In this document: one piece after another, positions 1,028-44,465 of the stretch | Numbering within the stretch: position 1 is the stretch's first letter | Layout of the letters: every line of letters starts with the position of its first letter | Assembly (NCBI GenBank): GCA_030536855.1 | Contig: JAUNPK010000012.1 | Span: forward strand, 1 to 64,000 | From: Eubacteriales bacterium | Lineage (GTDB): Bacteria > Bacillota > Clostridia > Lachnospirales > Lachnospiraceae | Reading direction: 5' to 3' | Length of the DNA stretch: 64,000 nucleotides | The notes under the pieces: generated by a model | Databases searched by the model: none | What the model was told of the DNA's origin: nothing | The model's input: only the letters and a program-made list of their open reading frames with translations | Program-made: the position numbers and the translations under genes

Positions 1028-1098
1028 AGCAGGATACGGGAGTCGAACCCGCCCAGCCAGCTTGGGAAGCTGGAGCCCTACCGATAGACCAATCCTGC
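1028..1098 (-). tRNA. tRNA-Gly (anticodon CCC)
   Basis: Reads GGG codons. Cloverleaf seen on the minus strand: 7-bp acceptor stem GCAGGAT/ATCCTGC, 4-bp D stem with two G-U pairs, anticodon stem CCAGC/GCTGG around the loop TTCCCAA (anticodon CCC), 4-base variable loop, and T stem GCGGG/CCCGT with loop TTCGACT. The CCA end is not encoded; the discriminator base is T. It lies just upstream of the nuclease gene on the same strand and overlaps the artificial N-terminal extension of that reading frame. Confidence 0.93.
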
Positions 1099-2861: not shown

Positions 2862-3026
2862 ATGACTATTAATATCACAACTTGTATTGTTCTGAATATT
2901 TCTAGTGATATTTCATTTCATAAAATAGTACATTTTGTGATTATTATATCTATTTCGAAAGTTTTTCAAGTCCAAAATAAGCCCATGGGCTTTTTACCTC
3001 CAATTCAAATGAAAGGACTGCTAACA
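2862..3026. other. AT-rich intergenic region, no gene seen
   Basis: An open frame crosses this stretch into the DUF6061 gene, but it has no ribosome binding site and low-complexity content. It most likely holds the promoter of the 3027 gene; no clear sigma-A motif pair stands out. Confidence 0.5.
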
Positions 3027-3266
3027 ATGAAATTGATACACGCAGAATATAACCCGATGCATAACAGCATCGACATTAACCACTATAACGGCTACATCCT
3101 CCGGATTGATTGTAATCAGGCAGAATCCTGGATACGGACTACTCCTAATTCTCAACGGTGCTTAAATGCTCTGGCGATTGACAATCCGCTGGAATATGTC
3201 CGGCTTGCTCTTGATGGCAAGATGCAGGCGTGGGTGGATGCGGAGGATAGTTTGGAAGTGTTTTAA
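3027..3266 (+). CDS. DUF6061-family small protein
   Basis: A 79-residue protein of unknown function that matches my recollection of the DUF6061 family (MKLIHAEYNPMHNSIDI ... DNPLEYVRLALDGKMQAWVD), typical of Lachnospiraceae. The start at 3027 is supported by AAAGGA ten bases upstream; the longer frame from 2823 has no binding site and is rejected. It is a single-gene unit closed by a strong terminator. These genes are often found on mobile or accessory DNA, which fits the setting. Confidence 0.75.
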   Translation: MKLIHAEYNPMHNSIDINHYNGYILRIDCNQAESWIRTTPNSQRCLNALAIDNPLEYVRLALDGKMQAWVDAEDSLEVF

Positions 3267-3273
3267 TGTGCCT

Positions 3274-3305
3274 CCCCTCTCATAACAAAGAGAGGGGGAT
3301 TTTTA
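3274..3305 (+). terminator. Rho-independent terminator
   Basis: CCCCTCTC / GAGAGGGG stem with an 8-base loop and ATTTTT tail, directly after the DUF6061 gene. Confidence 0.85.
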
Positions 3306-3324
3306 TACTTCTTATCAATTTTTC

Positions 3325-5052
3325 TTATGCATCCTGTAAATTTGGATAAACATTTAAACCAATTTTGGCTATGCCATTTAAATACTCATGTATAATATGT
3401 AAGGTCTGTTTTTCATCAATTTTACATATTCTCTGCAATTCGAAATCTTCTTTAAATTCAACTCCATATGCCATAGATACTATCAAGTTATTGACTGTAT
3501 CTTCTGTGGCCTCTATTCCCCTTGTCTGTAAAACTTGAGAAAGCGTATCCTCAATTTTTTTCTCTATGTTCTGCCTAAAATTCTTATAGTATTCTCTTGA
3601 ATAAACACTTTTATACTCTAAACTTTTCTCTTCGAATCGTATTTTTGCCTTTCCAGAAGCATTTAAACCACATAAATCTAATATACATGAGTCAATATAC
3701 ATACTTCTTTTTGTATTTTTCAACAAGCATATTTTTTCATCAATTTTTATAGGCCAAATACAATCATCCAGTTTTTTGGTATAATCATTTATGCTTTCTT
3801 CTTTAATTTCAACAATATCAAATAGCAACAATAACAACTCGTCCGCTTTTCTTTTTATATCGTCTGGGTACTTATCTAGTCGAATCATTGTACTACATTC
3901 CTGAGAAATAAGCATTCCTGCATATCTCTGCTTACTTCTTGCCTCTGTAAACACATAAATATCACCCATTGACGGATTATTATACTCTTTATTTACGCTA
4001 TAATCCGCAACATTAAACAAAAGGGTTCCAGAATTTAATAACTTCTTTTTATTTGATTCAACCCGTAAATTCTCATATTTATTCTTTGATGAAATGCCCT
4101 TCTCATCCATAATAGCTTTTGAACGCTTGGCACTATATCGCAAAAGGCCTTTCTCATAATCCAAAACATTCGTAGATAATATCTGCTCTAAAACATTCTT
4201 CTTAATAAGAGAATCAATTAACAATTCATAGCTTTCCGTAATTTTTCCACCTTCAATGTATGCGTCAACAATCATATCATCTAGATTATCAATATTAATA
4301 TGAAGTAAATCTTTAAAAGCCTTTTCTACAGAAATCTTCTTCATTTCTATCATCTTACTCAGCGCTTTTCCATACATTGATTTTGAAACCATCTCTTTTA
4401 TTCCAATTACAAGTTGCGTCTCATCCGTAATCTTTGAAAGTGGCCAGAACTGATATAAAATTTCCAAATCATTTTCTTTATTGTTTATCTTAAGATAATC
4501 AACTTTCTTATCATGTTCTAATAATCCGGCAACTTCATTAGAATAAACTATCACAAGATCGCTATATGTCTTTCTTTCCTCTATTATATTTACTATATAA
4601 TCCAGAAATTCATTTTCACGATTTGCGCCCATATCTTTATCTAAAATATACAAAGTATTTCCTTCTAATGTCTGATAAGAACTTTCAAACTTAACTCCTG
4701 TATATATATTGAACATGCTCTCCAATTGACACAATATGCTCTTTAACGTTTTTAATGACGCATCAATATCAATCTGTAAAGTTTCACATATCACAAAAAA
4801 TGTTTGAGGAATTAATGACTTAACATTCTCAGCTTCTTTTACCGGCGTATAGCTATACTCCTTATAAGCGTCAGCTTCCTCTGCAACAATTTCTATACCA
4901 TACGTATCGCAGAAATCCTTTATTGTAATATTTAGGTCATTTCCTGCTTTTTCTATTTTCCCCTCGAGTTCTCCAGCAATACTCCATCCGTCATCAATTG
5001 ATATGATATTTTTTATTTCATATTCATTTAACATTTGTATTAAGTCTTGCAA
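3325..5052 (-). CDS. Receiver-like protein, last gene of MTase-GHKL operon
   Basis: 575 residues. Residues 1-220 look like a divergent response-receiver domain: acidic pair in NIISIDDGW (20-21), candidate phospho-acceptor in LYILDKDMG (138 or 140), and VIVYSNE (about 168-173) in the place of the conserved Ser/Thr strand. Inserted helices make it longer than a CheY fold, as in the Response_reg_2 type. Around 360-392, GDIYVFTEARSKQRYAGM and LISQECSTMIRLD resemble a small beta-barrel module seen in uncharacterised conflict-system proteins. No DNA-binding domain is recognisable, so it is not an ordinary transcriptional regulator. Its start lies 2 bases past the stop of the GHKL gene, so the two are almost certainly co-translated. 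It may be the effector or signalling partner of the upstream kinase-like protein (inference). Confidence 0.75.
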   Translation of the reverse strand: MQDLIQMLNEYEIKNIISIDDGWSIAGELEGKIEKAGNDLNITIKDFCDTYGIEIVAEEADAYKEYSYTPVKEAENVKSLIPQTFFVICETLQIDIDASLKTLKSILCQLESMFNIYTGVKFESSYQTLEGNTLYILDKDMGANRENEFLDYIVNIIEERKTYSDLVIVYSNEVAGLLEHDKKVDYLKINNKENDLEILYQFWPLSKITDETQLVIGIKEMVSKSMYGKALSKMIEMKKISVEKAFKDLLHINIDNLDDMIVDAYIEGGKITESYELLIDSLIKKNVLEQILSTNVLDYEKGLLRYSAKRSKAIMDEKGISSKNKYENLRVESNKKKLLNSGTLLFNVADYSVNKEYNNPSMGDIYVFTEARSKQRYAGMLISQECSTMIRLDKYPDDIKRKADELLLLLFDIVEIKEESINDYTKKLDDCIWPIKIDEKICLLKNTKRSMYIDSCILDLCGLNASGKAKIRFEEKSLEYKSVYSREYYKNFRQNIEKKIEDTLSQVLQTRGIEATEDTVNNLIVSMAYGVEFKEDFELQRICKIDEKQTLHIIHEYLNGIAKIGLNVYPNLQDA

Positions 5053-5054
5053 TG

Positions 5055-7541
5055 CTATACCATCCTTTCACTTAAATCGAATACGAATTTGTACCTTCTA
5101 CCATCTCTTCTCTCATCTGAAAGCCAGACTCTGCCATTCATATTCTCCGTTAATTCCTGTACAATAAATAACCCTAATCCTCTTCCGTTCTCTTTCATAA
5201 AGCGGAAAGGTTCAAACAATTTATCTTCGATTTCTGGATGTACTCCGCAGCCCGAATCAAAGCATTCAATTTTCCCACTTTGTTTTATAACAAAATTAAT
5301 AGATTTTTCTTGTTGAGAATATTGTACCCAGTACAGCGAATTGAGAAATATATTATCAAAAATGGTAGTTAATATTCCCTTATTAGCCTTAATAGATATA
5401 TTTTCCCCTTCAATTAAAACATCCACACCATCTCGTCGTGCTTTTCGAGACATTGGACTATCTTCATTTACATACATATCTACCAGAAAATCCCTTAATA
5501 ATATTTCCTCTTGCTTTTCCAGATTACGCCTATATGTTGATTCCATGTGGGCTAATTGTATTTTCAAGAAATTAGTCTGTGTAATTATGTTCCTCTGATT
5601 TTTTACAATTTTATCAGTATCATTTTTGCTCTTTATAGTATCTCTTGCGCAATCCTCTATATTTTGCTCAATTCGATTCATTTCGTGCGTCAACGATTCT
5701 GCAATTATACCCAACCCCAGCAATGGAACAATGTCTTTTATTTCTTCTATTTGTTGCGACTTTAAATATATTTCTTGCTTTTTTTCATCTATGGCTTTTT
5801 GCTCTGCTACTTCATACTGAAATATTTTATCTTGTAAATTTTCAATTGCTTCTTGTGACATATCAGCAGCCATAGTTCTATTTGAAATTGCAACCTTTAA
5901 ACCTTCAATTTCGGTCTTTACATCTTGCATTTTCTTATTTTTTACCTCTTCATAACCCGCCTTTCTTTGAAATACAATCATTCCATTATCAGTTGCAACT
6001 TCACCTTTTCTTTCTTTGGTCCTCGTAAACCCATCCCTAAACTTAATATCGCTTTCAAAAATAATATTGAGTAAGAAATTTTGTATTAGCATAAAGAAAT
6101 TTTTACCATACTCATCCTGAATAAAACCTTGTCTATTTGTCTGTTCTTCAAGCTTTTCACTTGTAAATCCATCTATTTTTAAATATCCTACAACTGTATG
6201 CTCCTTGTAAATATTATTAGCTGCAGTCTGACTCTTTTCGGTAAAACCAATCCAATCCTTTCTTCCATAAGGCAACACTCTAAAACCATTTCTGTATACA
6301 TAAACACCTTGCATGGAAGACCACGCTTTATTAATCTCACTTAATGAATTTAATTTTGCTTTTATTAAACCTTCTTTCTCTAAAATAATATCTATTTCTT
6401 CCTTATTTGACTTGTCTCTTGCATAAATTACTCCTTTGAAATCTCCTGGATATGCATATTGGTCTAATATAGCTTTTGTATATTCTTCTTCAGTTAATAT
6501 TCCCTTATCTTTCTTTTCTTCAAGCTTGGATAATAATCCCTCACTCAAGAACGTGGTTCTTTCTATTGTAAAATGAATTTTGGGATAATCAATCGAAACT
6601 TTATTCAAATCACTGAAATCAACTATATGTTCCTCATAATCCTTTTCATAGTCTTCTTCACGCAATATCGTAAAGCCGGATTCTTTCATCTTTTTAACGA
6701 GAGCATTCCGACGTTGCATAATATATTTTAAAGGACGTTCAATTTTCACATATAATTTCCATTCTTTAAATTCAAAGGATACCTTCGAATCGTATAATTC
6801 ATCCAACAAACTCTCATCCACAGGTTCAACAAAATATGGAACGTCATTAATCTTTAACAATACATTAAATCTTTCACTCTTTTTCAGATTTAAATTCTTC
6901 TGAAAAGGATCCATCATATTCAATAACTCATTTTTTAGTTTTTCTTCTTTCTTCTTGTCCATATCCCAGAAGTTAAGATTTTTAATTCCTTGGATTACAA
7001 TTTTTGTACCATATGATGTCACAACGTCCTTTTCATATTTTACTGTAGCCATAATATCTGAAAAATCCATATCAATTGGAAATTCAGACCAATCTATATC
7101 GATATTAATTTTACTGTACTCTTTTATAAATTCTACATCTTCCTCTTTAAGTAAATCTGTTTCTTCAAATCTCTCTATATTCGGCACCGTTTCTACAGTT
7201 ATATAATTTCCTAATCTCTGAAACGAAAGACGTCCTATACCTTTCTTACCCAAAACCCTTCTATGATAGTAAATAGAACTCTTCTCTTCCTCTTTAAAAC
7301 TTGTCGATAACCTCAAGAAAGAATTTCTCACAATGCTCGGAATCATCCCATTACCATCATCTTTAATCTCTATACGGCCCTTTCCATAAGGAGTGACAGT
7401 ATCTGTATCAATAACTACATCGACATTATTAGCATCTGCATCATATGCATTCTTAATCAACTCCAAAAGGGCAACCAGCTCATCTTCAATAAGCTGCTCA
7501 CCTAGCTGCATGATTAATCTTGCAGATGCTGTTAAATTCAT
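5055..7541 (-). CDS. Double GHKL ATPase: MORC/Hsp90-like N-term plus histidine-kinase-like C-term
   Basis: 828 residues; start ATG at 7541 directly behind GAGGAGTG. The N-terminal GHKL ATPase has an N box ELIKNAYDADANNV (27-40), G1 DDGNGM (61-66) and G2 lid GKKGIGR (98-104), of the HATPase_c_3 / Hsp90-MutL-MORC type. After a long middle region and a coiled coil comes an H-box-like helix ESLTHEM with His near 619, then a second ATPase: FDNIFLNSLYW (N box, N730), FDSGCG (762-766) and GRGLGLFIV (786-794). This resembles a soluble sensor histidine kinase fused behind a MORC-like ATPase; no transmembrane segment is seen. It sits between a DNA methyltransferase and a receiver-like protein in one operon. 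I infer a phospho-relay or ATP-gated clamp in DNA defence; this is unproven. Confidence 0.8.
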   Translation of the reverse strand: MNLTASARLIMQLGEQLIEDELVALLELIKNAYDADANNVDVVIDTDTVTPYGKGRIEIKDDGNGMIPSIVRNSFLRLSTSFKEEEKSSIYYHRRVLGKKGIGRLSFQRLGNYITVETVPNIERFEETDLLKEEDVEFIKEYSKINIDIDWSEFPIDMDFSDIMATVKYEKDVVTSYGTKIVIQGIKNLNFWDMDKKKEEKLKNELLNMMDPFQKNLNLKKSERFNVLLKINDVPYFVEPVDESLLDELYDSKVSFEFKEWKLYVKIERPLKYIMQRRNALVKKMKESGFTILREEDYEKDYEEHIVDFSDLNKVSIDYPKIHFTIERTTFLSEGLLSKLEEKKDKGILTEEEYTKAILDQYAYPGDFKGVIYARDKSNKEEIDIILEKEGLIKAKLNSLSEINKAWSSMQGVYVYRNGFRVLPYGRKDWIGFTEKSQTAANNIYKEHTVVGYLKIDGFTSEKLEEQTNRQGFIQDEYGKNFFMLIQNFLLNIIFESDIKFRDGFTRTKERKGEVATDNGMIVFQRKAGYEEVKNKKMQDVKTEIEGLKVAISNRTMAADMSQEAIENLQDKIFQYEVAEQKAIDEKKQEIYLKSQQIEEIKDIVPLLGLGIIAESLTHEMNRIEQNIEDCARDTIKSKNDTDKIVKNQRNIITQTNFLKIQLAHMESTYRRNLEKQEEILLRDFLVDMYVNEDSPMSRKARRDGVDVLIEGENISIKANKGILTTIFDNIFLNSLYWVQYSQQEKSINFVIKQSGKIECFDSGCGVHPEIEDKLFEPFRFMKENGRGLGLFIVQELTENMNGRVWLSDERRDGRRYKFVFDLSERMV

Positions 7542-7576
7542 CTTTTCACTCCTCTGCACTTTTCATCTTCTCCTCT

Positions 7577-9253
7577 CTATTTTTTCCTAACCACCAATAT
7601 ATATTCATTCATCATTGTATTTACTTCTTCACAACGTTCAATGGTTGAATTAATATGATGTGGCATTCTCTTAAAAGAATACTTTCTACTCAAGGAAGCT
7701 TCACACTCATACCCCCTGTTCAAAAACCAATCTTTTAATATTCCTTCCATGTTGATAGTAATCTTTCCCATGACAGTTCTATGACCTACTATCCAAACCT
7801 GAAAGCCACCTTTTTTCATCACTCTATCAGTTTCTAAAACAACTTTATACAAATCCTTTAAAAAAACTAATACATCCTCTTTTCGCTTTTGAATTGACTT
7901 TTCATTTCTATCTAAAGTTTCTGTTACTCTGTCCAACTTCTCATCCAAGTGTGCCTGGCGTATTACATATTTAGATGAATATACATTCTCCATCTGTTTC
8001 ATATATTCAATTGCATTTTTCTTTGCCAATTTTTTTGTTTCTTTATCTTTCAATCTTGTCTTAGAATTTTTAATCTTTCTGTAAATATCCAATCTAACTC
8101 TTTCAGAGATTAGTTGATAAAGGATTTCATTTTTATGTAATAAATCTGTTGATACAAACTGATTGTTGTTAATGCATCCCCTCATTTCTTCCAGCACTTC
8201 TTTAGCTCTTGCTATGTCATTCTTCTTTTCCCGAATTCTGGACTGCATTTGTATTTCTAAACTTGCAACTTCATTTGATTTATAAAAATCTTTTTCATCT
8301 TGCAAGCTCCATTCAGATTTTCTTCCTCCTAATAATTGTTCATCGCAATTACAATCTGCCACTTCAATTCCGACATATCTTTTTAATAAATCTTCCATCC
8401 ACTGGAGAGAAAGCTTTGAAAATTCACCATATGCAACTGTCGTTTTCGAATCACCATATGGCGGTGAAGTAATTACTAAATCTATACTCTTATTTTTCAG
8501 ATAGTTCAATGACTTAGCATTTTGCAAACAAATTGTACTTCTAGTCTCTTTTTTATAACTATCATTCGCCACAACCAACATATCTAACAAATGAGTTACT
8601 GCATCTTCAAATTCATCAATCGCACTAACAGAAAATCTCTTTATGTCACTAGGCGACATTCTGTATAATTTAAATTCACCATTCCTAGTTAATGAAACTC
8701 TTCGTATTGTAGAGCTAAATGCGGTTAACAATATTAAAGCATACATTTCCCGGTTAACCTTATTAGCTTTATTAATAAATTGACCTATTTTATATTTTAA
8801 GAAGTTTAATTCGCGAATATTTTCTTCTTTAAACCAATAATCAATACTGTTAAATGTACAAACTGGTATTAATCGTGCATCAGGGTACTCTTTTTTTACC
8901 TGTTGAACAAAATCACTTAATCTCTTTTTTGTATAATTAGTATTATCTATAGTTAATGCTTTAGTTTTGGACAATAAAACAGCAAGAGGATTCAAATCTG
9001 ATCCCCAAAAGTCCAATCCTAAATATTTTGACTCCAATGCAGTTGTTCCACTTCCCACAAAAGGGTCTAATACAGTTTTTATTGATTTAATTGACATAAC
9101 CTTTTTTATTAAATCACTAACCATTTCAGGAACAGCTTTTGCTGGATATGTATGTAAATTACCCGTTGAAGAGAAAAAAGAGGCATACTTATTTTCACCT
9201 TCGTAATCTAAATTAAGTTCTTCCCATTTTAAAGCATTTTCTGCATTTTTCAT
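7577..9253 (-). CDS. Site-specific DNA methyltransferase (N4-C/N6-A amino type)
   Basis: 558 residues. The SAM-binding motif I is DPFVGSGTT (63-71) followed by FWGSDLNPLA; catalytic motif IV is ITSPPYGDS (261-269), diagnostic of amino-methyltransferases acting on exocyclic N of cytosine or adenine. Residues of roughly 320-460 are highly charged and helical (coiled-coil-like), an insertion that probably carries target recognition or partner contacts. The C-terminus (DRVMKKGGFQVWIVGHRTVM) completes the Rossmann fold. It is the first gene of a three-gene operon, 35 bases before the GHKL start (17 before the open frame). No restriction endonuclease gene is adjacent, so protection of self DNA is presumably coupled to the two downstream proteins (inference). 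Confidence 0.88.
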   Translation of the reverse strand: MKNAENALKWEELNLDYEGENKYASFFSSTGNLHTYPAKAVPEMVSDLIKKVMSIKSIKTVLDPFVGSGTTALESKYLGLDFWGSDLNPLAVLLSKTKALTIDNTNYTKKRLSDFVQQVKKEYPDARLIPVCTFNSIDYWFKEENIRELNFLKYKIGQFINKANKVNREMYALILLTAFSSTIRRVSLTRNGEFKLYRMSPSDIKRFSVSAIDEFEDAVTHLLDMLVVANDSYKKETRSTICLQNAKSLNYLKNKSIDLVITSPPYGDSKTTVAYGEFSKLSLQWMEDLLKRYVGIEVADCNCDEQLLGGRKSEWSLQDEKDFYKSNEVASLEIQMQSRIREKKNDIARAKEVLEEMRGCINNNQFVSTDLLHKNEILYQLISERVRLDIYRKIKNSKTRLKDKETKKLAKKNAIEYMKQMENVYSSKYVIRQAHLDEKLDRVTETLDRNEKSIQKRKEDVLVFLKDLYKVVLETDRVMKKGGFQVWIVGHRTVMGKITINMEGILKDWFLNRGYECEASLSRKYSFKRMPHHINSTIERCEEVNTMMNEYILVVRKK

Positions 9254-9292
9254 TTTATTTCACCTCATTTGAGCCTAAAATCCCATAATCTT

Positions 9293-9321
9293 ATTATACC
9301 TAATTCAACCTGATTTCTCAA
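9293..9321 (-). promoter_or_regulatory. Sigma-A promoter of the MTase-GHKL-receiver operon
   Basis: Minus-strand TTGAGA (9316-9321), exact 17-base spacer, TATAAT (9293-9298), about 40 bases before the methyltransferase start. It gives the operon its own constitutive-looking promoter. Confidence 0.8.
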
Positions 9322-9416
9322 TTATTTTATTCTGTTTTATCAATATAAATATTTATATACTTATTATGTTTCTGCTTATCTCACAAAGCATTTTTCAATA
9401 ATCAAGTCTTTATGCC

Positions 9417-9782
9417 TCATTCCCCATACGGATAATAATGCTCTGCCTTCGACTGAAACTCCTTCAAATCACAAATCTTCAAATCTGCATCAAACTCAGC
9501 AATGGTAACTCCGTCAAAACCATCCACATTGCCCTCGTAGTCACACTTAAAATACCATTCCACCACAACAGTATTCCCGTAAACAATCACACGCTTTATA
9601 TCCCACTGCAAAACAGTACCTTTCCGGTTCCAATCCCCAAACCATCTGCTTATCTGTCCAATGCCTTTATATACCGGACCATAACACTCGCTGTAAATAA
9701 TATCATCGCTGAAAATCTCCTTTACAGCATCAATATCTTTATCCAGCCAGCACTGAAAATATTTTCTAATAACCTCTTCCAT
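9417..9782 (-). CDS. SnoaL/NTF2-like domain protein
   Basis: 121 residues, a single alpha+beta cone of the SnoaL/NTF2 superfamily: IRKYFQCWLDKDIDAVKEIF at the N-terminus and strands such as VVVEWYFKCDYEG. Function is not predictable from the fold; members range from isomerases to binding proteins. Good binding site GAAGGAG at start. It follows the isochorismatase-like gene by 7 bases, so both are probably one transcript. Confidence 0.8.
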   Translation of the reverse strand: MEEVIRKYFQCWLDKDIDAVKEIFSDDIIYSECYGPVYKGIGQISRWFGDWNRKGTVLQWDIKRVIVYGNTVVVEWYFKCDYEGNVDGFDGVTIAEFDADLKICDLKEFQSKAEHYYPYGE

Positions 9783-9789
9783 TCTGTAC

Positions 9790-10314
9790 TTACTCCTTCA
9801 TCCGTTCAATCATTTTCTCCACAGAAATACATTCCGCATATCTGCTCTTCCACATAAATTCGTTATAATACTTATAACTCTGCTCCCCTGTCATAAAAGC
9901 ATTATCGAATGTGGAATTCGCATTTTCCGGCACAATCATTTTAAAACCATGCTCAAATCCGCACTTAATTGTGGCATCAATACTGTAATCTGTCTGCAAT
10001 CCAACAACAGCTACCGTCTGGACATTCTTCTCCCTCAAGTATTCCAACAAACCGGTTCCCTTAAAAGAACTATTTACTGTCTTATCGAAAATATTTTCAC
10101 CCGGCTGTGGGCTAAAACCTTCATATATCTCAAATCCAGATGTTCCCTTCGTCAATTTCTCACCAGCACCATCATCGTGTCTTACATAAATTACTTCAAC
10201 ATGATTCTCTCTGGCTGCTGCAATTAACGTTTTTACAGCATTTTCAAACGCACTAAAATTATACAAATCCAAATTGGTTATCAATTTCTGTGTATCCACC
10301 ACTAACAGTACCAT
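9790..10314 (-). CDS. Isochorismatase-family (cysteine hydrolase) protein with Ser at nucleophile site
   Basis: 174 residues. Family features: catalytic Asp in LLVVDTQ (residue 7), the TVNSSF segment holding the conserved Lys/Ser loop, and GLQTDYSIDAT followed by KCGFEHGF. In family members I know, the last motif reads QTDYCID with the nucleophilic Cys; here the codon gives Ser. Either the protein is inactive, works as a Ser variant, or acts in binding only. Members hydrolyse amides or esters of small metabolites. The start follows AGAGAGGTAGAGC. Neighbours are a SnoaL-like gene and a DUF3795 gene on the same strand. Confidence 0.8.
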   Translation of the reverse strand: MVLLVVDTQKLITNLDLYNFSAFENAVKTLIAAARENHVEVIYVRHDDGAGEKLTKGTSGFEIYEGFSPQPGENIFDKTVNSSFKGTGLLEYLREKNVQTVAVVGLQTDYSIDATIKCGFEHGFKMIVPENANSTFDNAFMTGEQSYKYYNEFMWKSRYAECISVEKMIERMKE

Positions 10315-17051: not shown

Positions 17052-17849
17052 TTACACCTCATAAATAAATTCCAAATCCTTCTTTAGTACCTCGTCTACC
17101 GACAAATCAAGCCAATTCTTTTTAGACCGCTCCACTTGCTTTTTGTATGTACTACTATTAAAGATTCTCTCAGCTCTTTTTCTTATCTCATCAGCATCAT
17201 TTACATCAATTGTAGTATCAGCATATATGTACTTCTGTATGCAGAATCGAAGTTTCTCCATATCTGCCAATTCAGACAAATAACAGATATCAAATACATC
17301 TTTATATCTGGTAGACCGGGTTCCGAAACGCATCAAAGATTTCAATTTTTCAGCAATCATCTGCTCACATGAATTAATTAACACACTGGCAGAATCCTCT
17401 TGAAAACATACATCAAAACAATACTCTTCCTGTTCAATATCTAAGTCTTTATGTACACCAATATCCATTTTCAACGAAAGCACATTGCCGAAGTCATCGG
17501 ATATCTCAATATGAATACGCTTGCCTTTATAATCCTGATGTTTTAATTCCTCTATGGGTGCTGACATCCGCAATCGAATCCCATCTATACAATTCAGCTT
17601 TTCAATAAATATTCCTATGGATTCTTCGGATATGGAAAATCGAATAAAATCCAAGTCCAAATCCTGCGTAGCTCGTCTTGCATTCTTGGACAGGCTACGC
17701 ATAACTACACCGCCCTTAATGGTGACTTTTCTATTCAGACTACTCTGTGAAATTGCCTTTATAATAATATCCTGGCACAGCTTGGCTTCTGCATTTGCTT
17801 CGCTGTATCCATCTTTTTTAATTTTATCTACTTCATCCAACAAGTTCAT
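17052..17849 (-). CDS. abiEii: AbiEii-type nucleotidyltransferase toxin
   Basis: 265 residues. Nucleotidyltransferase fold: IKGGVVMRSLS (45-55) and the metal-binding DLDLDF after RATQ, then a second acidic strand LKMDIGVH and KLKSLMRFGTRSTRYKDVFD, all typical of AbiEii/AbiGii (DUF1814). AbiEii toxins act by adding nucleotides to tRNA or related targets and cause growth arrest, giving abortive phage infection and plasmid maintenance. Its ATG overlaps the stop of the antitoxin gene (TAATG), ensuring coupled translation. Confidence 0.9.
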   Translation of the reverse strand: MNLLDEVDKIKKDGYSEANAEAKLCQDIIIKAISQSSLNRKVTIKGGVVMRSLSKNARRATQDLDLDFIRFSISEESIGIFIEKLNCIDGIRLRMSAPIEELKHQDYKGKRIHIEISDDFGNVLSLKMDIGVHKDLDIEQEEYCFDVCFQEDSASVLINSCEQMIAEKLKSLMRFGTRSTRYKDVFDICYLSELADMEKLRFCIQKYIYADTTIDVNDADEIRKRAERIFNSSTYKKQVERSKKNWLDLSVDEVLKKDLEFIYEV

Positions 17850-18391
17850 TACAATACCTCCAACTCAATAATCTGCATCATTTTATCCGAATGTTTAAAC
17901 TTAGCTGCGTACTCTTCCACCTTCGCAATATCCATAGTCTCCACACGATTCCTGTACGATCCGATAATCTCCTTGTAATAGTCAAATGGTAATTTGCCTC
18001 GAAATCTAACAAGCTCAATCAGCATCCTTTCCAAGTTGTAAATGCATATCTCCGTGTTATGATATGACATCTTAATCTGCCCCATATCAAAAATATCCTC
18101 TTTCAAAAATGTCTGCTTTACCCGTTCATCCTTAATCCTGCCATCGGTTCTGACCGTTGCCAAATGATAAAAATCAGGAATCACATCCGTCAGACCATGA
18201 TAGTAAAAAGCACTTTCCCCGGAAAAAACTGCCTTCGGGTATTTCGCACCGATAATCTCCAACTCAGAACAATTTTTGCTTAGGGAATAAATTCCCTTTT
18301 CTTTTTGAAAAAGATTCCCTTCCGCTATTTCTTTTTTCAACATATGGTCGCTACCATATTTCTCTATACATTGCTTATATGTCAAAACCAT
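17849..18391 (-). CDS. abiEi: AbiEi-type antitoxin
   Basis: 180 residues. N-terminal winged-helix region (CIEKYGSDHMLKKEIAEGNL, GIYSLSKN), then the AbiEi C-terminal domain with FSGESAFYYHGLTDVIPD and YNLERMLIELVRFRGKLP. Antitoxin of a type IV system and DNA-binding autorepressor. The first gene of the pair, directly downstream of a promoter flanked by two inverted repeats. Confidence 0.9.
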   Translation of the reverse strand: MVLTYKQCIEKYGSDHMLKKEIAEGNLFQKEKGIYSLSKNCSELEIIGAKYPKAVFSGESAFYYHGLTDVIPDFYHLATVRTDGRIKDERVKQTFLKEDIFDMGQIKMSYHNTEICIYNLERMLIELVRFRGKLPFDYYKEIIGSYRNRVETMDIAKVEEYAAKFKHSDKMMQIIELEVL

Positions 18392-19832: not shown

Positions 19833-20013
19833 ATGATCTTTTCAGTTCCTCATCGCAGTTAATTGGCTCTGTTGTCATGTAATCAGAATAATTTGTCTTC
19901 AAATCACCTATAGCCTCTAAAGCTTGATAAAAGCAGTCTTCATGTTTTTCGCACACCAAGAGACATTGAATTAATTTTCTTTTCTCAGAATTATTCACAG
20001 AGATTAAATCCAT
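19804..20013 (-). CDS. Small hypothetical protein, probably truncated
   Basis: 69 residues: SEKRKLIQCLLVCEKHEDCF, YQALEAIGDLKTNYSDYM. Its ATG lies 10 bases inside the 3' end of the DUF262 gene, so translation would be coupled. From about residue 60 (RSWAYSRRIDI) the DNA encodes RhuM sequence in another frame, so the original C-terminus was lost at a recombination junction. Function unknown. Confidence 0.45.
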   Translation of the reverse strand: MDLISVNNSEKRKLIQCLLVCEKHEDCFYQALEAIGDLKTNYSDYMTTEPINCDEELKRSWAYSRRIDI

Positions 20014-21797
20014 CCCTTCTTTTTAAATTCCTCAATACGAGCTAAATCTTCTTCAGAAGGTTCGTCCTTTTTTTCAGCCTCAACCGGAACATTTAAATAC
20101 TCATTATTCCATCTATTGAGTATAGCTATGATTTCATCAGAAACACGAATGTCACGTTTCATAATAGAATCCATATTCCAATCAGAAACATCGGATGTTC
20201 CAAGAGCCTTTGTAATAGCGATTTTAGAAGCAGAATATTCCTTTTTCTTCTTTCCAAAATAGCCATTACCAGCCACGATATTCAGCTTCTTTTCAAAAGG
20301 GAGTTTATTACCTATATGCTCAATCTTTTCCTTGATGGTCGCATCTGACTCATCCGGGAAATAGTTTGTCTGCCACTTCTGAGGGAAGATATGCTCAATT
20401 TCCCATTTTGCAGGCAGAAGTTCATCTTGCTGCTCATACGCCAATGTCTTCAAAAGCATACGTACCGCATTACGGTTAGGATTCTGAATATAAGGTTCCA
20501 GCTGAGCCAAATCAATATTCTTGAATTCAAATGTTGGTACATCAGAAGCAACGATTGCTGAATTCAATTTCAGAATATCTGGCTTTACAGCATTGATGGT
20601 CGGAATCATAAGATACTTTGTCATCAATTCCATAAGAAGCTTATTCAAAAATAGTGCAAACCGCACTTCAAAATTTTCTTCATTTCGATAACATACATAA
20701 TAAATTACTACCGGATATTTCCAGAACTCATTTGGATAAGAACTCAAAGTATCGAGTGTCTGCTTGATTTTCATATTCTTCGACCAAGCCTCATTCTCTA
20801 TTTCTTCACCCTTGTTGACAACTTTCCATAGGTTCAAAATTACAAATAGTGTATCTATCAGTTCTGGTTTATATAAACGCTCAAATTTATTGGCAGCATA
20901 ATACTTTCTTACGCCGGGAGTAGTTGTCTTAGTATCCTGCTCCAAGGCACGATAATAAAACATATTGTAGTAGAACAGCTGCTGAATGCTCTCGTTTGCA
21001 TCTGTAGCCTGCTCATCTAAATCCTTCCATCTCTCGATAAAGGCTTTTTTATCTTCCGGTTCAAGCTGGTTATAAATCTTTGCTTTAAAAATATCTGCAT
21101 CTGACAAAGGCAGACCTCTATCATTCAATGTTGAGAAGATTGTTAAAGCAGTATCCTGTGTATCCGCTGTAATCGGAAGCAAAATAGCTTGATTCAGTAA
21201 TGCATAAATAAACTGATATACCATCAAAGGGTTCTCTGTAGAATGCTTATCAAACAGCTCTTGGAAGTAACGATAGTTCTTTGAGTAGTTGTCCTTTGCA
21301 TTCTCGTCAGCACATCCTGTTTCCAGAATTGAACGAAGTATCTCATTCCCGTCGTTATGTACAACACGTGATGTCAAGAGAATATTCTTGTAGTCCACAG
21401 TACCTGTTAGTTTATTAGTTCTCCAAATTGCAGGCTCAATTTTTCCGATAAAGTTATTGGCCTCTGCAGTTCTTTCTGATGCAGGTGTTGCAACCAACTT
21501 TGTATAAATTGCACGCAGCAATAAGAAAAGAGAAGTTATACGTTGTTGTCCATCTATTATTTCCTGCTCACCATCTTCGTTCTCGTAAGAAACGACACTT
21601 CCAAGGAAATATGAGCCTTCTCGCTCTGTACCTCCACTGGTAGCTGTAAACTCCCATAAGTCCTCAAAGAGAGTTTCTACCTGTTCATCTGTCCACGCAT
21701 AAGGACGCTGGTATTCTGGTATAACAAATGGTTTCGATTTACCACTTCCCAAAAGCGCTTCTACGCTTTGTTTGTTAACTTCTATTGTTGTTGGCAT
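20004..21797 (-). CDS. DUF262 + HNH (DUF1524) protein, GmrSD-like type IV restriction enzyme
   Basis: 597 residues. The DUF262 part has FVIPEYQRPYAWTDEQVE (24-41), YFLGSVV and IIDGQQRITSLFLLLRAI (about 80-97), the ParB/sulfiredoxin-like nucleotide-binding fold of GmrS. The C-terminal HNH-like DUF1524 nuclease has WEIEHIFPQKW (His near 469) and later NKLPFEKKLN. Single-chain GmrSD enzymes cleave modified phage DNA. GAGGAGG precedes the ATG. Its promoter region now lies inside the adjoining HsdS fragment, so its expression may have been rewired by rearrangement. Confidence 0.85.
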   Translation of the reverse strand: MPTTIEVNKQSVEALLGSGKSKPFVIPEYQRPYAWTDEQVETLFEDLWEFTATSGGTEREGSYFLGSVVSYENEDGEQEIIDGQQRITSLFLLLRAIYTKLVATPASERTAEANNFIGKIEPAIWRTNKLTGTVDYKNILLTSRVVHNDGNEILRSILETGCADENAKDNYSKNYRYFQELFDKHSTENPLMVYQFIYALLNQAILLPITADTQDTALTIFSTLNDRGLPLSDADIFKAKIYNQLEPEDKKAFIERWKDLDEQATDANESIQQLFYYNMFYYRALEQDTKTTTPGVRKYYAANKFERLYKPELIDTLFVILNLWKVVNKGEEIENEAWSKNMKIKQTLDTLSSYPNEFWKYPVVIYYVCYRNEENFEVRFALFLNKLLMELMTKYLMIPTINAVKPDILKLNSAIVASDVPTFEFKNIDLAQLEPYIQNPNRNAVRMLLKTLAYEQQDELLPAKWEIEHIFPQKWQTNYFPDESDATIKEKIEHIGNKLPFEKKLNIVAGNGYFGKKKKEYSASKIAITKALGTSDVSDWNMDSIMKRDIRVSDEIIAILNRWNNEYLNVPVEAEKKDEPSEEDLARIEEFKKKGWI

Positions 21798-21820: not shown

Positions 21821-22543
21821 TTGTATCGAATAAATGATAATTTACAGCAGCAGTTAAAGATCCTGTACGATTACTGGTTTACGCAGTTTGACTTTCCTGA
21901 TGTAAATGGCAATCCCTATAAGTCGTCTGGTGGAGCGATGGTTTGGAATGCTATTTTAAATCGAGAAATTCCTGCATGTTGGGAAGTTGATAAATTGCTG
22001 AACATTGTATCTTGGGAAAGCAACAGTCAACCCCCAAAAAGCGAGTTCGTTTATGAACCTAAAGAAGGTTATATTCGCTTTATTCAAAACAGAGACTATG
22101 ATTCGGATAACCATAAAACCTATATTCCATACACCAAGAATCTAAGTACAGTAGACAGATTTGATATATTGATAGATAAATACGGAGATGCAGGTGCTGT
22201 TCGTTATGGAATTGAGGGGGCATTCAACGTTGCTTTAGGAAAAATCAATGTAAATCGCCCAAATTACCAAGAATACATTCGCTCCTTTTTAGAAAGTGAT
22301 GGGGTATACTCATATTTACATAACTCTTGTATGGCTTCAACTCGCGCTTCATTGAATGAAAGTAACTTAAGCATGCTTAACGTAGTAATTCCGGATGAAG
22401 AAACTTTATGTGCATATCAACTGCAAATAAGGAAAATTCGCGAATCAATTTTGCTAACAAATGACGAGAATCTTCAGCTTGAAAATCTACGAAATTGGCT
22501 TTTACCTATGCTGATGAACGGACAAGCTGTAGTACAAGATTAA
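21821..22543 (+). pseudogene. Half HsdS: type I restriction specificity subunit fragment
   Basis: The frame opens with no binding site (TTG at 21821) in the middle of the central conserved helix of HsdS: LQQQLKILYDYWFTQFDFP, NGNPYKSSGGAMVWN, REIPACWEVDKL. It continues through one target-recognition domain (to about residue 190) and the C-terminal helix ending LRNWLLPMLMNGQAVVQD. Thus it carries only the second half of an HsdS. No hsdM or hsdR is in the window. It could be a silent specificity cassette for recombination or simply debris. Confidence 0.8.
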
Positions 22544-22570
22544 GCCGCTAAATTATCATCTGTCCTATAA

Positions 22571-22798
22571 TTAGGACTCAGATGCGTCAACTTCAACTTC
22601 AATCACATACTCCATAATATCCCCATAGTCCACATCAAGCGTCTTGCAAATCTTGCCAAGCACACCCAATGTCACCTCTTCATCTCTCCTAAGCTTAGTC
22701 ATTGTATTAGGTGCAATTGCAGCCTGCTTCCTCAAATCCGCTTTGCTCATTTTTCTATCCACTAATAACTTCCATAATCTGTTGTATGATACAGCCAT
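22571..22798 (-). CDS. Small XRE-family HTH regulator
   Basis: 75 residues; start at 22798 behind GGAGGGCAGATT. The compact Cro/CI-type fold is MAVSYNRLWKLLVDRKMSKA, LRKQAAIAPNTMTKLRRDEE, VTLGVLGKICKTLDVDYGDI. This type is common on integrative elements and phage remnants; it faces away from the integrase fragment. Confidence 0.85.
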   Translation of the reverse strand: MAVSYNRLWKLLVDRKMSKADLRKQAAIAPNTMTKLRRDEEVTLGVLGKICKTLDVDYGDIMEYVIEVEVDASES

Positions 22799-23029
22799 AA
22801 TCTGCCCTCCATCATGCATCAAAAAATAACAAAATTCTATTAAACATTATAACATAAGCATTTTTTATCTTCAAGAAACTTTCGCACACCCTTGCGATGT
22901 TACAAAAGTTCCTTCAGGCTCTTCTCAACCGCTATTTTCAGCTATTTAATCTCTTACTTGTGCAAAACGAAATTCCACCTACTCCTTATTTGTCTCATTT
23001 CTCAATTATTCTTCTTGCATCTTCCCATT

Positions 23030-23554
23030 CGAAACATCATAATACCGGACTTTGTAATGAACGAAGTCAAAGATTATATGTCAAAGCTTTTTGATTTAAA
23101 AGATACGGACAGGGTCTTCCCCTTCACCAAATCTTATATCAATAATGCAATGGCAAGGGCTTGTAAGAAATGCGGAGTGAAAAAGATTCGTATCCACGAC
23201 ATCCGTCACTCCCACGCCAGCTATCTTATCAACTTAGGCTGTGCACCACTGCTCATATCGGAACGGCTAGGACACGAAAAGGTACAGACTACCTTAAGCA
23301 CCTACTCACACCTATATCCGAACAAGCATCAGGAAGTGGTGGATATGATACAGAAACAGCACAAGTTGGAAACAGTAGCTGCCGGTGCATCTGAAACCTC
23401 AGATAAACCAGAAAAGGATCCTCAACCACAGAACACAAGGTTCAAAGTCGTAAGTCCAAAGGATAAAATAAGTCCACAGCAAGTCCACGATAATGACTTA
23501 AGCCCATGCGTCGGCTTCGCAAGGCGCACCATAAAAAGGCTCAACCCCTTGTAA
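23030..23554 (+). pseudogene. Tyrosine recombinase (integrase), C-terminal part only
   Basis: The catalytic domain is present from about IPDFVMNEVKDYM: HDIRHSHASYLINLG (Arg box), SERLGHEKVQTT (His/Lys region) and the nucleophile YSHLYPNKH. The N-terminal arm-binding and core-binding domains are missing; sequence before about 23040 has no homology I recognise. The Pro/Gln-rich tail runs to 23554. It ends 49 bases from a tuf 3'-end remnant, as expected for an integrase next to its attachment site. Confidence 0.82.
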
Positions 23555-43029: not shown

Positions 43030-43145
43030 GAAGCCTCACACGACTAAAGTCGCGTGCTTCCTATAGGTGTCTTGCGACACCTGCTCGCTTTAGGCGAGCG
43101 GACTGCGTTTCTACCATACGGCTAAAACTCAGTATTTTATATCTA
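43030..43145 (-). ncRNA. Probable omega-RNA (TnpB guide RNA scaffold)
   Basis: Immediately after the tnpB stop the minus strand has three consecutive stem-loops ending at the right-end hairpin: GCTCGC/GCGAGC (43083-43099), AGGTGT/ACACCT (43065-43082) and GAAGC...GCTTC (43030-43060). TnpB omega-RNAs are known to arise from the tnpB 3' end and right end, with the guide taken from flanking DNA. The 5' boundary probably lies inside tnpB. Confidence 0.55.
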
Positions 43146-44465
43146 CGCAGATATAAGTACCGCATTTAAGCTAACTAAAGTAGAGAACGTGCAGGTGCTT
43201 CTCTTACAACATTGAGGAACTTTAGCCTCAATAAGTAACCTTGAACTCTCATTCAGGGATTTTAAAATTTCACGTATGAAATATCTTGCACCTATGTTAT
43301 AGGATGCAGATAAATCGCAGTTATAAGTTTTTCCATTTTGGAATTTACAAAGCTCGCAGGTATTGAAACCACCTTCTTTGCCACGGAGAATAAAACCACT
43401 TCCATCGAAAGCTAATCGTGATGTATTCCATGCACAAATATGAGTTATACGCATACTAAGTCTGTGAGCCTTATTTGTAACTATCGACTGAACTTCCTGA
43501 CTGCGCCACATTTTGAGTTTTTGCTTCTTAGAACCACGAGCCTTACCATTCTTATCTAAATGCTCAAATACAATGGTGTCAACATTATAGAGAACAGCTA
43601 TATCCATGATGTAATTTGCTGTCTTAACAGCTATGTCGTGGTTAATACCTTTTGCCTTAGTCCAAAGCCTTGGCGTTTTATAGTTATCGTTCTGTTGCGC
43701 CTTCTTAATACGGTTAATGCTATGCTTTAGACGGTCTGTTTCTTTGGAGAGTTTACAAAAATGTCTTCCAAGAATAGTGCCGTCAGAGCGCATTACGGAA
43801 ACCGTAGCAGCGGTGTTAATACCAAGGTCTACAGCAATAATAGTCTGCTCATAGATAGGAGTGTCAGTGAGTTTTGTATTTTCCTCGAACGGGAAATCTA
43901 AAAACCATTCCTTTCCTCGCTTTTGTAGCGTAGGGGCGCACTGTTTGCGTTTTGTGCATCGTCTGTATATATAATCCATATCAGATTTTTTAAGGACTAC
44001 AGTTATCCAGTCCCAGGTATTGCGGATATAAACCTTAATTTGGGCAGTATAATCACCTATCTGATTATACATTACAGTACGATACATGGAAGGAAATATG
44101 TATCCTGCTTTTGGATAGGATGGTTCTTTACCAGCAGGATTGTTCTGCCAGTTAACAAGATTGCTTTTATATGACGAAGCCTTGCCAATAGCCTCGTTAA
44201 TAGCACCACGGCGCATATAACTTGGCATCTTATAAAACTTAGCATCGAAGTCGTATATAGGGGCTGGATTATCTTTTGTGGCATGAATACATCTCTCCAC
44301 ATACTGTTGCTGCAAAAGATTATTTTTGTTAGCAGAGATGTTGTCCCATTCACTAAGGCAGACATTTATCAGAAAGTCTACGGCTTTGCGGTAAATAGAT
44401 ACAGTATCTTTGAATATATGATTATAATGTTTGATTTTCACACTGTATGTAGAGTATATCTTCAT
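43143..44465 (-). CDS. tnpB: TnpB, RNA-guided endonuclease of IS200/IS605
   Basis: 440 residues. RuvC triad: D213 in IIAVDLGINTAA, E301 in VFEHLDKNGKARG, D384 in YNCDLSASYNIGAR. The zinc-finger region has CELC (370-373) and Cys383 but no obvious second CxxC pair, so the finger is reduced. TnpB cleaves DNA under guidance of omega-RNA and helps keep the element in place. Its start lies 17 bases after the tnpA stop. Confidence 0.9.
   Translation of the reverse strand: MKIYSTYSVKIKHYNHIFKDTVSIYRKAVDFLINVCLSEWDNISANKNNLLQQQYVERCIHATKDNPAPIYDFDAKFYKMPSYMRRGAINEAIGKASSYKSNLVNWQNNPAGKEPSYPKAGYIFPSMYRTVMYNQIGDYTAQIKVYIRNTWDWITVVLKKSDMDYIYRRCTKRKQCAPTLQKRGKEWFLDFPFEENTKLTDTPIYEQTIIAVDLGINTAATVSVMRSDGTILGRHFCKLSKETDRLKHSINRIKKAQQNDNYKTPRLWTKAKGINHDIAVKTANYIMDIAVLYNVDTIVFEHLDKNGKARGSKKQKLKMWRSQEVQSIVTNKAHRLSMRITHICAWNTSRLAFDGSGFILRGKEGGFNTCELCKFQNGKTYNCDLSASYNIGARYFIREILKSLNESSRLLIEAKVPQCCKRSTCTFSTLVSLNAVLISA

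Follow-up and report, generated by a model that had tools for sequence, protein, structure and literature searches.

A conserved trio of DNA methyltransferase, double-GHKL kinase-like and receiver-like genes, proposed as a modification-licensed immune system

Restriction–modification (R–M) systems are usually viewed as a marker combined with a cutter. In Detocs, a signal runs from a kinase through a receiver to an effector, and the effectors differ; to our knowledge, Detocs contains no DNA-modification gene and relies on a sensor other than that of the kinase described here. A kinase–receiver pair located beside DNA-methylase genes was described in silico in 2021 as HEF_HK (PF19191) and Response_reg_2 (PF19192), with 91.6% linkage (Bellieny-Rabelo, PMC8011034). 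The main text of that paper emphasizes C5 methylases with Vsr and includes an N6/N4 methylase in the network. It presents the partner as having no further known domain, proposes R–M control, and contains none of the terms PAPS, phosphoadenosine or phosphorothio-. The paraMORC GHKL ATPases were defined in connection with R–M loci and a DNA-looping model, according to the relevant passages of Iyer 2008 (PMC2292703), and passages of a BREX paper (PMC12839542) connect phosphorothioation with DUF4007, PAPS reductase and SspC-like ATPases. Among the open-licence PMC papers searched, no experimental test of the kinase–receiver pair was found.

The window (the whole stretch of DNA that was analysed, 64,000 nucleotides) contained three adjacent minus-strand ORFs within 9253–3325, encoding the methylase P0001, the kinase P0002 and the receiver-like protein P0003 (Table 1). 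The ORF coordinates bore out the intergenic spacings of 35 and 2 bases given in an earlier note on this DNA, as well as its observation of an amino-methylase unaccompanied by a restriction enzyme, no such gene being among the three ORFs. With regard to a type II R–M system, the ORF list and Pfam revealed no endonuclease gene in the operon, and none was recurrent across the 37 trio loci described below. The promoter, which the same note had called perfect, was near-perfect. It was the top-scoring of 36 promoter-like sites in 3000–9800; since shuffled sequences contained 34.1, a mere count of such sites says nothing in favour of a promoter, and only the score and the place of this one matter.

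Table 1. Coordinates of the operon, its encoded domains and neighbouring genes in the window.
Feature	Position	Strand	Remarks
Promoter, sigma-A-type, TTGAGA-17-TATAAT	9293..9321	-	11/12 consensus positions, near-perfect
P0001, predicted amino-DNA-methyltransferase, 558 aa	7577..9253	-	N6_N4_Mtase 2.5e-13; PADLOC MTase_II 1.6e-82
P0002, double-GHKL histidine-kinase-like, 828 aa	5055..7541	-	ATG start at 7541
P0002 N-terminal paraMORC/Hsp90/MutL-type GHKL region, residues 6-232	6846..7526	-	HATPase_c_3 5.2e-18
P0002 His619 codon, H-box phospho-acceptor candidate	5685..5687	-	His in 146/147 aligned kinases
P0002 C-terminal kinase CA domain, residues 724-823	5073..5372	-	HATPase_c 6.1e-21
P0003, receiver-like partner, 575 aa	3325..5052	-	TTG start at 5052
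P0003 N-terminal receiver-like region, residues 1-231	4360..5052	-	signature residues; Asp138 codon 4639-4641
P0003 C-terminal domain, effector candidate, GD..SQxC..R..R..LD..R	3325..4011	-	Cys386 codon 3895-3897
Short Fic ORF	1.9-2.3 kb		neighbourhood of operon
AbiEi/AbiEii	17.0-18.4 kb		neighbourhood of operon
GmrSD	20.0-21.8 kb		neighbourhood of operon
HsdS-like ORF	21.8-22.5 kb		neighbourhood of operon

P0001 was predicted to be an amino-DNA-methyltransferase on the basis of its profile matches and its motifs, DPFVGSG at residue 63 (from ~9067 down) and SPPYG at residue 263 (~8467–8453). Among P0001-type ORFs, the motif-I pattern DxFxGxG[TS] was present in 31 of 46 and [DSN]PP[YFW] in all 46. 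The two GHKL ATPase sites and the H-box histidine in the C-terminal core that had been assigned to P0002 were both confirmed by the matches and the conservation listed in Table 1. An alternative GTG start 18 bases upstream of the ATG would yield a protein of 834 aa. The best stretch of the HATPase_c_3 match covered residues 23–121. Residues 12–187 matched the N-terminus of the BbrUII/HgiDII restriction enzymes (NF050001, 1.3e-18), the N-terminus also matched MutL (1.1e-5), and the PDB matches of this part were Hsp90-type chains. For the H-box region and the CA domain, the top PDB match was the histidine kinase LvrB (2e-22). The count for His619 includes the window, and the single aligned kinase lacking this residue had a gap. 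Asn730 and Asn734 of the C-terminal N-box were each conserved in 146/147 aligned kinases, and Asp762 and Gly766 in 141/147; the conservation of the N-terminal GHKL residues was partly preset by the search patterns.

This architecture resembles the HEF_HK/Response_reg_2 pair as characterized in the main text of PMC8011034, namely a kinase with HATPase_c_3, an H-box and HATPase_c beside a receiver-like protein near a methylase, and the window has an adjacent same-strand partner with a conserved Asp. As a difference, the window trio combines an amino-methylase with no R–M nuclease. The earlier statement that no named system with exactly this composition is known needs correction in that the kinase–receiver pair had been named beside R–M genes in 2021. 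Pfam searches of the window's genome gave no match to HEF_HK at E ≤ 0.1 and none to Response_reg_2. Across nine genomes or records, HEF_HK exceeded its cut-off in one, L034 (26.7 against 24.1 bits, with coordinates fitting the kinase), and L119 matched Response_reg_2 with 25.5 bits in one search and 27.1 bits against a cut-off of 27 in another. With paraMORCs the window shares an N-terminal GHKL ATPase beside DNA methylases and nucleases; it differs from them in its kinase core and its receiver-like partner, the word "receiver" being absent from the text of PMC2292703. The likeness to BbrUII/HgiDII was confined to the ATPase region: P0002 scored 66.9 bits, far short of the curated threshold of 550, and its C-terminal part is instead a histidine-kinase core. 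Among the PADLOC matches listed, which for P0001 were the top 25 out of 52, none carried the name Detocs.

Relatives were collected with a profile of five kinases (A1), from which the best 80 of at least 537 matches in genome contigs and the best 80 of 107 in viral contigs were taken, so that the sample favours the query. One kinase was kept per locus, kinases hit on plasmids were added and kinase ORFs shorter than 600 aa were dropped, resulting in 158; removal of 85%-identical kinases left 147 non-redundant double-GHKL loci, the window included. The kinase was directly followed by a same-strand gene, the presumptive partner, in 143 of these loci, and in 130 the two were −38 to 27 bases apart. 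An iterated full-length P0003 profile, which ended at its last round without convergence, found 90 of the 156 downstream genes present before redundancy removal and only three ORFs elsewhere. Single-sequence queries with P0003 and P0002 found no relatives in viral contigs, whereas profile A1 did. P0003 had no plasmid match, no match among 144 other relatives searched and no believable match in 397 other genomes of the phylum sample; a hit in L003 (G172, E 9.5e-4) was judged a chance match. Only five phage records matched P0002, none over 47% of its length, and one DNA query with the HNH-type locus L096 gave nothing closely similar in E. coli genomes. Pfam scans covered 111 of the 143 partners and, for 28 of the other 32, C-terminal regions or the whole protein (P0003, L005); L042, L053 and L112 were left out, and the region of L005 was not in A8. 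Before the kinase, the Pfam scan took in 101 of the 121 upstream genes on the same strand (gap <150).

The three-gene system is real, conserved and mobile, and by architecture it belongs to a pair known in silico, of which the amino-methylase-linked form is little studied. At least 37 loci, the window included, combined a P0001-type methylase with a P0002 homologue, and no fourth gene family was shared by more than three of them, so the supposition that the trio is conserved as a unit was upheld by the profile searches. This set includes the near-duplicates L022 and L024, a kinase truncated by the end of its contig (L114) and a split partner (L054). The methylase gene was located directly before the kinase in 32 loci, two genes after it in four and two genes before it in one; in L012 it lay 2.1 kb beyond the partner. 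By their record titles, the loci came from genomes of Bacillota, Bacteroidota, actinobacteria, proteobacteria and nanoarchaea, and metagenome bins were frequent among these. Pairwise distances of methylase, kinase and partner were correlated across 29 loci (Mantel r 0.83, 0.79 and 0.92; 0/2000 permutations each), as expected for joint inheritance, although common descent alone would give the same. IMG/VR contigs, the source of half of all loci, carried 9 of the 37 trio loci, and a Hymenobacter plasmid carried the entire trio. The low G+C content over the operon and the lack of P0003 matches in the 144 other relatives likewise speak for mobility. TnsE_C had one match among the upstream genes scanned, and the upstream ORFs of L011 and L029 contain a motif that we take to be that of Tn7-type transposition genes.

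A DNA-modification gene was found near the kinase–partner pair in 126 of the 147 loci, nearly always of a single kind. Within four genes, the only such gene was a C5 methylase in 47 loci, a P0001-type methylase in 37, an Eco57I-type N6 methylase in 21 and a PAPS reductase in 16; five loci had two kinds and 21 none, several of the latter at contig ends. Co-occurrence of two kinds was rarer than in any of 5000 permutations (mean 31.3, minimum 19). The modification gene was at offset −1 from the kinase in 82/141 loci, at +2 in 23/141 and at +3 in 14/135, and at no further offset between −8 and +8 did its share exceed 5.1%. By Pfam, the upstream genes matched the overlapping families N6_N4_Mtase (21), DNA_methylase (17), N6_Mtase (14), Eco57I (13) and PAPS_reduct (11). 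Modification modules differ yet keep their place beside one kinase–partner pair. A Vsr profile run on the loci grew to 83 ORFs, which was judged to be drift, and was ignored.

Of the 17 PAPS loci, nine had two extra same-strand genes (~300–345 and 1105–1153 aa) before the reductase, and in three the reductase was on the opposite strand. In L034, PADLOC identified the genes before the kinase as SspB (4.8e-115), SspC (E = 0) and SspD (2.9e-137), which indicates coupling of the pair to phosphorothioation genes at this locus; L038 encoded SspD (3.2e-120). L034 thereby resembles the Ssp phosphorothioation systems, having SspBCD-like genes before the same kinase–partner pair. In the described Ssp systems, SspE or SspFGH occupies the place taken here by kinase and partner. 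A single phmmer search, in which the GmrSD protein of the window served as query, detected no gene of this kind in the 17 PAPS loci (flanks up to ~7 kb).

P0003 had no match of substance in Pfam, NCBIfam or PADLOC, and PADLOC-DB contained no named model for the partner protein. Signature residues, their order and the gene context point to a receiver fold. Asp20/21, Asp138 and Ser171 stand in receiver order; the order Asp-Asp, acceptor Asp, Ser/Thr, Lys was present in P0003 and in a methylase-linked set of 29 members, where Asp20, Asp138 and Lys207 were invariant (29/29). Among the 143 downstream partners, Asp138 was conserved in 142, Ser/Thr171 in 134 and Asp/Glu20 in 141, while Lys207 was not conserved outside the 29-member set. 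Asp140, put forward earlier as a second pocket residue, did not form an invariant column. The N-terminal profile of the window's clade did not match canonical receivers significantly (E 0.035, probability 1.5%; receiver profile built from 11 of 25 own-genome receiver loci), although the alignment placed Asp138 on the acceptor Asp. The clade profile matched a set of 13 partner rows (nine short partners and four N-terminal pieces of longer ones) with E 0.0045 and a probability of 7.7%, and this set matched canonical receivers with 1.9e-10. PF00072 was matched by 8 of the 111 scanned partners, P0003 itself not being one of them. An iterated profile of the P0003 N-terminal region found 48 downstream genes and one other ORF; it reached the SspBCD-linked L034 but missed L119, L043, L096 and L161. 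The 111 scanned partners yielded seven listed Pfam families with E ≤ 0.001, and no DNA-binding regulator family was among them. Of the claim of a receiver-like protein free of a DNA-binding domain, the conserved acceptor and the lack of a known DNA-binding domain were retained, whereas the receiver profile test was not significant.

In loci with short partners (187–295 aa), the output was encoded by the next gene, two genes after the kinase. This position was occupied by PtuB-like HNH genes in six loci (PtuB 3.6e-5 in a set-based PDB search), ComEC-like metallo-beta-lactamase genes in five (2e-23), a RES gene in L082 (1.8e-12) and an AbiV-like gene in L059 (2.9e-11); the six HNH and the five metallo-beta-lactamase sequences were each searched against PDB as a set, while PADLOC naming was applied to a single member of each, L096 for HNH and L132 for metallo-beta-lactamase. 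Longer partners were followed by two unassigned families, in 17 and 5 loci, and in the class to which the window belongs, output and receiver-like part form a single fused protein. A caspase-like reading of the genes that follow the partner in two loci, L151 and L162, was not adopted: it came from a motif only, with no Pfam match and, for L151, no meaningful PDB match. Output modules are exchangeable, within or after the receiver, yet their position is kept. On the kinase tree, the modification label and the output label each changed seven times, indicating that exchanges were few and old; output labels, assigned by regular expression and small profiles, were available for 93 of the 147 loci. 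New here are the linkage of the pair to modification genes in 126/147 loci, its association with PAPS reductase and, in L034, with SspBCD, and the exchangeable outputs.

The C-terminal 228 residues of P0003 contained Gly, Asp, Cys, Arg, Arg, Asp, Gly and Arg residues that were invariant in 28/28 relatives; the Cys was kept in 100 of the 143 partners overall and is followed by Ser in the window but by Asp in most relatives. The domain had no meaningful Pfam or PDB match and matched no nuclease family. A MazF/PemK fold was not supported by profile comparison (E 0.12, probability 0.5%), in which only three MazF sequences, pattern-recovered from 12 fetched loci, were used. Its profile found exactly one match in 15 of 20 genomes searched and none in five (L034, L038, L052, L066 and L077), whose partners lie beyond the reach of this profile. 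L054 has two separate genes for the receiver-like part and the C-terminal part, and on a Campylobacter plasmid the gene next to a receiver gene encodes 177 aa and contains a TPSCD motif. Because of these gene splits and the changes of output, we regard the domain as an effector candidate, which would presumably be toxic; it could alternatively be regulatory or DNA-binding. The effector placed in this half of P0003 by the earlier note was thus found as a separable module in an effector-like slot, its toxicity staying presumptive.

We consider it probable that the operon provides modification-licensed immunity through a His–Asp relay, and its best reading is that the kinase–receiver pair stands in for the restriction enzyme. 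An immune role is favoured by modification genes and output genes that vary in kind between loci and yet stay in fixed positions around one pair. P0001 would mark the host's own DNA, and the N-terminal MORC/MutL-type ATPase of P0002 would act as the sensor by engaging DNA or a methylase–DNA complex and detecting the missing mark or another state of the invader. The sensor would then switch the C-terminal kinase core to autophosphorylation of His619, from which the phosphate may pass to Asp138 of the receiver-like partner. Phosphorylation would release the C-terminal domain of the partner as an effector that stops the phage or the infected cell. Of the methylase/GHKL/receiver defence reading made beforehand, the conserved trio, the kinase core and the receiver-like partner were substantiated, and methylation-based discrimination of self and non-self fits the wider family; the defence purpose, the phosphotransfer and the sensing of unmodified DNA are functions that we infer. 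A wider reading is tentative, and we lean slightly against it: one sensor-kinase/receiver core may read the absence of almost any DNA mark and report it by a His–Asp relay to interchangeable effectors, restriction being signalled instead of cut at the recognition site, and the window effector may be a new enzyme domain with invariant Asp-Cys-Arg-Arg-Asp-Arg. The marks concerned are an N-methyl base, 5-methylcytosine and phosphorothioate.

The pair could instead be a two-component regulator that tunes the neighbouring methylase or R–M genes and not an effector system, in line with the R–M regulation already proposed in the main text of PMC8011034. A kinase core, a receiver-like partner and a methylase in the same operon agree with such a role, but it appears unlikely given that the scanned partners contained no DNA-binding regulator family, that across the 37 loci the P0001-type trio has no recurrent nuclease neighbour and that nuclease, NADase-type and HEPN families fill the output position elsewhere. 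SspBCD, moreover, works with a restriction partner. We judge equally improbable a MORC/MutL-like DNA-looping restriction complex in which the ATPase clamps unmodified DNA, the C-terminal domain of P0003 is a nuclease, and His and Asp form an assembly switch with no phosphorelay. The looping model for paraMORCs (passages in Iyer 2008, PMC2292703), the BbrUII/HgiDII-like ATPase part of P0002 and the HNH genes that follow in six loci are in its favour, whereas the conservation of His619 and Asp138 almost throughout, together with an intact kinase core, and the absence of a nuclease family match for the P0003 C-terminal domain argue against it. The RES and AbiV outputs, too, are not known to be DNA nucleases.

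A selfish addiction module, in which loss of the methylase activates the kinase and its partner, kills the cell and so stabilizes the carrier element, is consistent with relatives on plasmids and virus-classed contigs and with differing output genes of toxin-like families. We find this reading very unlikely; it is compatible with defence, R–M systems commonly serving both purposes, and the present data do not separate the two. Should modification-licensed immunity be correct, and the cutter be replaceable by a signalling pair, one mark-reading front end could be connected to nuclease, NADase, RNase or other toxic outputs. This would provide a function for a kinase–receiver family left open since 2021 and explain some of the orphan-looking methylases beside such kinases, and the C-terminal domain of P0003 offers clear residues for functional work.

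The genes flanking the operon (Table 1) agree with its earlier description as part of a defence-rich island in so far as AbiEi/AbiEii, GmrSD, HsdS-like and short Fic ORFs are nearby, most other window ORFs having been judged by eye. An integrase-family ORF lies, like these, within the first 24 kb of the window. The sole tRNA of the window (1028–1098), considered as an insertion site, had no visible link to the operon. Among 22 genomes of the genus, the flank gene at 9790–10314 occurred in two, one of which is that of the window. The G+C content per kb was 0.30–0.34 over 3–9 kb, compared with 0.34–0.41 across the remainder of the first 26 kb.

At locus L034, genes similar to SspB, SspC and SspD are followed by a double-GHKL kinase and its partner, the receiver-like gene directly downstream. 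A resembling layout was found in eight further kinase-bearing loci (L032, L036, L038, L049, L052, L069, L076 and L087); PADLOC naming of Ssp genes covers just two of the loci, with three genes from L034 and a single gene from L038. The arrangement is read as a putative phosphorothioation module in which the kinase pair occupies the place expected for the restriction module.

The gene two positions after the kinase, the putative effector position, encoded a PtuB-like HNH protein in L096, L116, L129, L136, L143 and L155, each time preceded by a bare receiver of ~210 aa. In 17 other loci this position was held by a family of ~245 aa, accompanied by an Eco57I-type methylase in 14 of them. One member, run against Pfam and PADLOC, gave no match. 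The family is a second unassigned candidate for the output, besides the C-terminal domain of the receiver-like partner P0003.

Features in the window and in related loci
Feature	Location	Support or remark
SspB-SspC-SspD-like genes, then double-GHKL kinase and ~650-670 aa partner	L034 1846-11343	
~245 aa family member, two genes after kinase	L105 7660-8397	16 further loci similar
AbiEi/AbiEii type IV toxin-antitoxin pair	window 17052-18391	PADLOC 3.6e-80 and 2.6e-121
GmrSD-type protein	window 20004-21797	GmrSD_N 1e-39
HsdS-like ORF (240 aa), then integrase-family ORF (220 aa)	window 21821-23554	
OrfB_IS605 transposase gene (TnpB-like)	window 43143-44465	

Defence-type genes also neighboured the trio in the window. 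A relative of the GmrSD-type gene was located near the trio on the Hymenobacter plasmid (L005). The HsdS-like ORF was below the length of the matched models (~400 positions).

A stretch of ~77 bases (window about 2786-2862) showed 81-87% matches in three congeners; neither ARAGORN nor Rfam identified it as a tRNA. The transposase gene was also matched by Cas12 models (best 1.8e-14).
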